A DNA stretch of 64,000 bases from NCBI GenBank assembly GCA_013289795.1, contig JABCZH010000002.1, positions 248,001 to 312,000 on the forward strand. The letters are read 5' to 3'. Source of the DNA: Acidobacteriota bacterium (GTDB taxonomy: Bacteria; Acidobacteriota; Terriglobia; Terriglobales; Acidobacteriaceae). The position numbers and the translations under genes are program-made. The notes under the pieces are model-generated. The model did no database searches, was not told where the DNA came from, and saw nothing but the letters and a program-made list of their open reading frames with translations. Below, in pieces: positions 16,554-18,898 of this stretch; within the stretch, counting starts at the first letter, position 1, and each line of letters starts with the position of its first letter.

Positions 16554-17093
16554 ATGCCCTCCGAGAACGAAATCAAGATCAACGAAGCGTACCGAAACTA
16601 CACGCCTCCGGTTAACGCCTCGATGATAGTCCGCAAACTTCTATCCACAGTTCCCGATAAGTACCTTCAAGGTTTGGACTGCGTCGTCTTGACGAATGAG
16701 GTCGCCCTGTCTCGAAGGGACCGCCTAGGACGGGTCTGGTCACGTGGACGTAAGTTCGACAAGTCACGTGTGTTCGGTCGTTATCACCCAAGCTCCCGTA
16801 ACTCCTTGCCTTACATCGAACTCCGAGTGGATAAAATCGTTGCTGGCTTGAAGGCAGGGCCCTTCCTTCTTCGTGACACCTCGTTTTTGAGGGACCTGGT
16901 CTTCGGGCACGTGCTCTTTCACGAACTTGGACATCACATTCATCACACGATTCGTCCCGAACATACCGAAAAGGAAGACTTGGCGGACACATGGGCGGGA
17001 AGGCTCAATGCTAACTTCGCCCGGAAGACATACTGGTACGGGGTTCCTGTGCTAAGGATCTACAAGTTCATGAGAAGCAGGAAGTGGATCTGA
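16554..17093 (+). CDS. Putative zinc metallopeptidase with HELGHH motif
   Basis: A 179-residue protein of unknown family. The clear signal is HELGHHIHH (His-123, Glu-124, His-127), a zinc-binding HExxH motif, with acidic candidates for a third ligand in EKEDLADTWAGRL about 20 residues later. There is no signal peptide, so it is probably cytoplasmic. Its base composition looks lower in GC than its neighbours, and it ends inside a partial copy of a small membrane gene on the other strand; both hint at acquisition from elsewhere. Fold resemblance to ImmA/IrrE-like peptidases is only motif-level. Confidence 0.65.
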   Translation: MPSENEIKINEAYRNYTPPVNASMIVRKLLSTVPDKYLQGLDCVVLTNEVALSRRDRLGRVWSRGRKFDKSRVFGRYHPSSRNSLPYIELRVDKIVAGLKAGPFLLRDTSFLRDLVFGHVLFHELGHHIHHTIRPEHTEKEDLADTWAGRLNANFARKTYWYGVPVLRIYKFMRSRKWI

Positions 17094-17359: not shown

Positions 17360-18898
17360 ATGTCCAGCTCGCCCCGGTTGCACTATCCGCAGGAGACCAA
17401 TTCGCGTTCAAGCGCATACAATGGCGCGGTGAGCATGCCACAACAAATCAGGGCGGGCATGAGGGACATCTGGAAACAGTGGGAAGGCCGGGTTGTCGAT
17501 GGAGTATTTCCATTGCAACGCTTCCTGGGAGGCTCCGACCGCAGCGCTGTGTTCCTGACACAGTACGGTCAGGGCGTGGCGCAAAGGGCTGTGATCAAGC
17601 TCGTTTTGGTTGATCCGAACACAGCTGATGCCCAGCTTTTTCGATGGAGGCTGGCGACGAAATTGCCCTCCCCCGGGCTGATCCGCATCTTCACCATGGG
17701 CGAGTCGAAACTGGATGCCACCGAGCTGCTCTACCTCGTGATGGAGTGCGCGGACGAGGATCTGGCACAGATTCTTCCCGAGCGGTCGCTGACCCCGCAG
17801 GAGACGCAGGACATGCTCCTCCCGGTGCTGGAGACTCTGGCATACGTTCACAGCCAGGGTTTTATCCATGGAAACGTAAGTCCCTCCAACATCGTGGCGG
17901 TCGCGGATTGCGTGAAGATGTCGAGTGACAGCCTTTGCGCTTTGCAAGAGGCGGCCAAGTGTGAGCGTGGAGTGTCCCGCTATGCGGCGCCGGAAGTAGC
18001 CCAAGGATCAATTTCAACCGCGTCCGATGTCTGGTCGCTCGGAATGACGCTGGTCGAGGTGCTCACACAGCGGCTGCCTGCTGCGGATCCGGCACGACCG
18101 GGCGCCGTGGTCCTGCCCGACGGAATGCCAGAACCATTCTTGGGTGTCGCAAAACAATGTCTGCAATCAGACCCTCTGCAGCGATGCACGATTGCTGACG
18201 TTGCGGCACAGCTCAAGCCTGTGCCGGCTGCGACTCGGGTAAGGGAAACGTTGGCACCCGCGGCTCACAAGAGACAATTTCTAGCCAGGTGGCTGATGGC
18301 GGCGGTCGCGGCAGGTTTGGTGGCGCTGTTATGGAAGTCCAGTTGGACGAAGAGGACATCCAATCCGCCGGATCGGCCGGCACAGGTAGGGTCGAGCCAA
18401 GGGCAGTCCGGGGGTGCCATTCAGTCAGTGTTACCGAAGCCAAGTCCAGGGGCACCGGCAGGAAACCAGGCCGGGGAAACTAGGGAACCAACGGCCTCGA
18501 CCGCCGCTGCGCCTATGGCTGCGACTGTGCCCTCCGGAACCGCGCCAAAGAGTGAAGCAGCGCCTGATCTCAATGGCAGCACTGCAACCGGGCCTAAGGT
18601 GCTGGGTGTGGTTCATGCCGTCATGCCCGAGGTGTCCCGGAGCGCGCGCAATACCATCGAAGGTAAAGTGAGAGTGCGAGTACGAGTCCAGGTGGACGCC
18701 TCCGGCAACGTGGTGTCCGCCAAGCTGGACTCGCATGGCCCCAGCAAGTATTTCGCACGCCTCGCCCTGGAGGCCGCTCAAGGCTGGAAGTTTACTCCGG
18801 TACAAGCCCAGGGACAGTACGTCGCGAGCGAATGGGCTTTAAGGTTCGTTTTCAGCCGCAGCGATACTGTCGTCGTGCCGAAGCAAATCACCCCTTAG
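17360..18898 (+). CDS. Pseudokinase with membrane anchor and TonB C-terminal domain
   Basis: Layout: a kinase-like domain of about 250 residues, a membrane helix (WLMAAVAAGLVALLW), a Pro/Ala/Ser-rich linker, then a TonB-type C-terminal domain (VSRSARNTIEGKVRVRVRVQVDASGNVVSAKLDSHGPSKYFARLALEAAQGWKFTP). The kinase fold is recognisable from AVIKLVL, YLVMECADEDL, YAAPEV and DVWSLGMTLVEVLT. The catalytic loop reads HGNVSPSN instead of HRDxKPxN, so the catalytic Asp is Asn, and no DFG follows. It is therefore probably catalytically dead and may act as a sensor or scaffold linked to the periplasm. Start is uncertain: ATG 17360 or 17435 (MPQQIRAGMRDIW, with GGTGAG upstream). A frame open back to 17084 crosses the repeat and looks non-coding. 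Confidence 0.75.
   Translation: MSSSPRLHYPQETNSRSSAYNGAVSMPQQIRAGMRDIWKQWEGRVVDGVFPLQRFLGGSDRSAVFLTQYGQGVAQRAVIKLVLVDPNTADAQLFRWRLATKLPSPGLIRIFTMGESKLDATELLYLVMECADEDLAQILPERSLTPQETQDMLLPVLETLAYVHSQGFIHGNVSPSNIVAVADCVKMSSDSLCALQEAAKCERGVSRYAAPEVAQGSISTASDVWSLGMTLVEVLTQRLPAADPARPGAVVLPDGMPEPFLGVAKQCLQSDPLQRCTIADVAAQLKPVPAATRVRETLAPAAHKRQFLARWLMAAVAAGLVALLWKSSWTKRTSNPPDRPAQVGSSQGQSGGAIQSVLPKPSPGAPAGNQAGETREPTASTAAAPMAATVPSGTAPKSEAAPDLNGSTATGPKVLGVVHAVMPEVSRSARNTIEGKVRVRVRVQVDASGNVVSAKLDSHGPSKYFARLALEAAQGWKFTPVQAQGQYVASEWALRFVFSRSDTVVVPKQITP

Follow-up and report, generated by a model that had tools for sequence, protein, structure and literature searches.

Membrane pseudokinases are known from actinobacteria, Firmicutes and other bacteria, and few of them have known functions. 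In Mycobacterium tuberculosis, the pseudokinase of the MviN/MurJ protein (ActPs3) recruits FhaA and serves as a recruitment scaffold in the control of the cell wall, and in Firmicutes type VII secretion the single-pass membrane pseudokinase EssB/YukC likewise serves as a scaffold (PMC12599244). Here we describe a gene from a window of 64,000 nucleotides, the whole stretch of Acidobacteriota DNA that was analysed, whose product belongs to a family of membrane pseudokinases and is to that extent of a kind already known. Like MviN it is linked to the membrane, but MviN is a transmembrane peptidoglycan-synthesis protein of actinobacteria that has lost the beta3 lysine and part of the activation loop, whereas the window family keeps the beta3 lysine and carries an outer TonB_C or SPOR domain. 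The ActPs3/MviN group is defined by degradation of all three catalytic motifs together with an activation-loop deletion (PMC12599244), and the window protein, in which the beta3 Lys and the APE motif are retained, falls outside that definition. EssB/YukC differs from the window family in taxon, in motifs and in outer domain; the window protein gave no match to this family in the Pfam or NCBIfam listings at E values up to 1, and clustering of the genes around its homologues brought up no recognisable secretion genes. The layout is also that of the PASTA kinases (PknB, StkP), which combine a kinase fold, one membrane helix and an outer envelope domain, but PknB is active and bears PASTA repeats, whereas the window protein is a predicted pseudokinase with no Pfam match to PASTA at E values up to 1.

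The gene lies on the forward strand, in a frame that is open without interruption from 17360 to 18898. Most homologues begin at a conserved W-K-x-W-E-G tag, and because the window protein reads MRDIWKQWEG from the ATG at 17459, this codon is more likely to be the start than position 17360, from which the preliminary description had taken the gene and which is probably 99 bases too early; position 17435 is a further alternative. The resulting coding sequence (17459..18898) specifies 479 amino acids in the order kinase fold, membrane helix, Ala/Pro-rich linker and TonB_C, so that the kinase-like domain, membrane helix and TonB-like domain first read from the sequence are all borne out by hydropathy and by Pfam matches above cut-offs to Pkinase (E=4e-20 to 5e-20) and TonB_C (E=3e-8). 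The pseudokinase domain occupies about residues 10-255 (17486..18223), and is followed by a transmembrane helix at residues 274-292 (18278..18334), a linker of about 91 residues rich in Ala, Pro, Ser and Thr (18335..18607), and a TonB_C-like domain at residues 384-467 (18608..18859). The kinase part presumably lies in the cytoplasm and the TonB_C part in the periplasm. The membrane helix is preserved in 63 of 64 aligned TonB-type homologues, the set from which the residue counts below are taken. A small ORF upstream of the gene (16554-17093, forward strand) contains HELGHHIHH and appears metallopeptidase-like by eye, with no Pfam match at 0.001.

Structure prediction of both ends of the protein, as the preliminary description had suggested, yielded a full two-lobed kinase fold and a modelled TonB_C block. 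AlphaFold2 gave the kinase domain a mean pLDDT of 92.2 from an alignment of 24 sequences, kinases from viral contigs included, that consists mostly of canonical kinases and hence favours a canonical fold; PknB is the closest solved structure (Z 25.1, 238 residues, 2.5 A). In an earlier model with four close homologues the TonB_C block reached a pLDDT of about 71-93 and a helix was placed at residues 273-295 with low confidence; its kinase part stood at about 30, and fold searches with that model were uninformative.

Residues were assigned by aligning the family profile to PknB, together with the alignment that includes kinases from viral contigs. In active kinases the Asp of HRD is the catalytic base and that of DFG binds metal, and both are required for catalysis. 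In the window protein HRDxKxxN has become HGNVSPSN (residues 137-144, 17867..17890), with Asn139 at the Asp position; His or Arg stands there in 55/64 homologues and Asp in a single one, L065, which has no DFG Asp. The former DFG site, within VKMSSDSL, reads S155-S156-D157-S158 (17921..17932), the PknB DFG Asp aligning to a family Ser (Ser156 here) and the PknB Phe to a family Asp (D157); none of the 64 homologues has Asp at the first of these positions, while 63 have Asp or Glu at the second. No member of the aligned set has the HRD and DFG aspartates together, and because 64 homologues share this pattern of loss it is not due to chance. There is also no conserved Glu at the alphaC position (Arg in 34/64, Glu in 1/64, and none that aligns in the window protein), and the HRD Lys, which 43/64 relatives retain, is replaced by S141 in the window copy. 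Retained, on the other hand, are the beta3 Lys47 in AVIK (17597..17599; Lys in 60/64), the catalytic-loop Asn144 (Asn in 62/64), the APE motif as AAPE (residues 176-179, 17984..17995) and DVWSLG (residues 190-195, 18026..18043; D190 in 64/64, W192 in 63/64). The preliminary description, which had reported VAIK-like, APE and DxWxxG motifs, an Asn for the HRD Asp and no DFG, thus holds at each of these sites, and so does its term dead kinase: the domain is, as predicted from these substitutions, nearly certainly a catalytically dead pseudokinase.

With Lys47 and Asn144 still in place, the domain may yet bind nucleotide and might even support some unusual form of catalysis. An active kinase in which Asp157, residue 139 and Lys47 substitute for the lost residues would draw on the near-universal presence of the lysine, the catalytic-loop Asn and the acidic residue at DFG+1, and on the DYD pseudokinases, in whose models an Asp has moved so as to form a bridge to the beta3 residue (PMC12599244). 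We regard such activity as very unlikely, since both aspartates essential to catalysis are gone, the alphaC Glu is not conserved, SPOR-type relatives from the same taxonomic family have exchanged Lys47 for Arg as well, and the fusion persists even in relatives (L240, L245, L134 and L251) in which part of the activation segment or the C-lobe is missing and TonB_C is still present.

The family is by no means confined to this genome. In profile searches it turned up in 176/300 genomes from its own taxonomic family and in 54/200 from another order in the same class, and a single-sequence search recovered it from 70/200 genomes of its own taxonomic family. Those relatives that carry a name are MAGs of Acidobacteria or Terriglobia. 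Comparison of the window gene with its nearest relative gives dN/dS values of 0.23 for the kinase and 0.20 for TonB_C, and both halves are therefore constrained by purifying selection. That the gene is a decaying kinase or an assembly chimera is hardly credible: its kinase domain is the lowest-scoring one found in its own genome, but the same fusion occurs in many independent genomes and the dN/dS values are well under 1 in both domains. Judged from the alignments, the catalytic loss is ancestral and maintained, and does not reflect decay. We note that three members from the other order (L236, L246 and L247) have an N-terminal extension that looks receiver-like by eye (KTALILDxDxxFAxWL); the extensions of L246 and L247 gave no Pfam match.

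The family is apparently both widespread and undescribed. TonB, SPOR and Acidobacteria go unmentioned in a review of bacterial pseudokinase families (PMC12599244), and no description of a kinase and TonB fusion in Acidobacteria was found in a full-text literature search whose coverage was partial, most subscription literature lying outside it; the family may be listed by name in the large kinase classification behind that review. With its conserved motif change, its maintenance in at least two bacterial orders and the varied envelope domains of its relatives, this pseudokinase offers a natural comparison for the role of dead kinases at the membrane.

The preliminary description had envisaged an unusual signalling or energy-coupling link, and it is the second half of this proposal that the TonB_C domain, the helix and the linker fail to support. 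The TonB_C domain scores 34.4 bits against a Pfam cut-off of 24.6, all 12 of its PDB sequence matches are TonB structures, and the host genome has six MotA/ExbB-family and 24 TonB_C matches; these observations would suit a TonB-type energy transducer whose helix couples to ExbB/ExbD and whose pseudokinase controls, from the cytoplasmic side, import that depends on TonB. That reading nevertheless strikes us as quite improbable. The protein shares its C-terminal domain family with the TonB transducer, but the Tyr of the YP motif is present in 0/64 homologues and replaced by V, I or P in nearly all (the position is mostly V-S or V-P, and PEVS in the window protein), whereas most ordinary TonB_C domains in the host genome retain YP; the family domain has instead its own conserved motif GPSxYFAR, which reads GPSKYFAR in the window copy. 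The helix comes after a domain of 270 residues; only 2/64 homologues have a His in it and the window protein lacks one, whereas E. coli TonB is inactivated by the H20A mutation (PMC11658791). Linkers have a median length of 53.5 residues and range from 31 to 124 in intact members, with many of only 31-50, and in relatives SPOR takes the place of TonB_C. At the level of sequence, the loss of YP, the lack of a conserved His in the helix and the linker lengths argue against coupling driven by ExbB/ExbD. A TonB_C match need not, in other words, imply nutrient import, and signalling or scaffolding is still the best reading of the link.

The exchange of the outer domain is seen in a related group (L073, L113-L133 and L135-L137) that has a homologous pseudokinase and membrane helix with a C-terminal SPOR domain in place of TonB_C, some of the SPOR Pfam matches being under the curated cut-off. 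Over 204 residues the window kinase shares 35% identity with a SPOR-type kinase (E=1e-39), and in a quick tree the pseudokinases of both types group on one branch (SH-aLRT 99). The SPOR-type relatives share the loss of the HRD and DFG Asp, those of the same taxonomic family differing in having Arg for the beta3 lysine, and both the TonB_C and the SPOR forms occur in the other order. A restriction of each genome to one type was considered and rejected, as some genomes carry two or three family matches, possibly of both types (G779, G798 and G850, all of genus g9). A more distant pseudokinase (L260, 1581-3011), with the loop CRTVEPDA and a retained DFG Asp, ends in DPBB_1, a domain of lytic-transglycosylase fold. 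SPOR domains are brought to septa through their binding to denuded glycans, the same glycans that RlpA cleaves (PMC12288456). On the simplest reading, the outer domain is predicted to be an interchangeable envelope-binding head; because in this family the outer half can be a cell-wall-binding domain, a link between cell interior and cell wall is a likelier role for the protein than the powering of nutrient import.

We therefore propose, with moderate confidence, that the window protein would be a catalytically inactive, single-pass scaffold of the inner membrane whose periplasmic TonB_C-like domain anchors to or reads the envelope, the most likely target being peptidoglycan or a protein associated with it; in function it may thus be comparable to MviN or EssB. 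The kinase fold would bind partner proteins in the cytoplasm, and perhaps nucleotide, with no phosphorylation; the TonB_C-like domain would anchor to the envelope or sense its state; and binding there would alter the pseudokinase in its conformation, clustering or location, so that the scaffold would couple the state of the envelope to its cytoplasmic partners. The envelope role, the ligand, the partners and the direction in which a signal would pass are all predicted here, and it is the domain exchange in relatives that suggests peptidoglycan. The TonB_C domains of known TonBs bind proteins, and the family domain has a conserved motif of its own, both of which would accord with a membrane scaffold whose periplasmic partner is an outer-membrane or periplasmic protein unrelated to peptidoglycan; with SPOR in close relatives pointing to glycan binding, we think such a partner somewhat unlikely. 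Returning to the peptidoglycan-linked scaffold, a broader and decidedly speculative extension is that lineage-wide membrane pseudokinases with exchangeable heads (TonB_C, SPOR and perhaps RlpA-like) report the state of the wall to the cytoplasm, and that their pocket would bind nucleotide in a metal-free manner through Lys47, the usually basic residue that stands in for the HRD Asp, and the acidic residue at DFG+1, which is nearly invariant.

Clustering of the ORFs around about 70 homologues revealed no conserved operon partner, yielding only shadow ORFs of the gene and genus-level neighbours (gapA, trmH-like and two-component genes in some). Elsewhere in the host genome (4.67 Mb, with 34 kinase-domain matches), 30/33 of the other kinase domains have both HRD and DFG, and the remaining three read HKD/DFG, HLD/DLG and, in one case, as a pseudokinase. 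The last of these (L198, G000:C12:16240-16962) is a second predicted pseudokinase, in which the HRD loop reads HCSLEPAK and DFG reads GFG, and has a hydrophobic helix and then PEGA-like repeats downstream of its kinase domain. L200 (G000:C7:59533-60192) has a kinase-like domain (HLDLKPDN, DLG) followed by an apparent HD phosphohydrolase domain, and in L199 (G000:C4:260427-260780) a kinase (HKDLKPAN, DFG) is preceded by a domain that resembles a DNA-binding winged helix.
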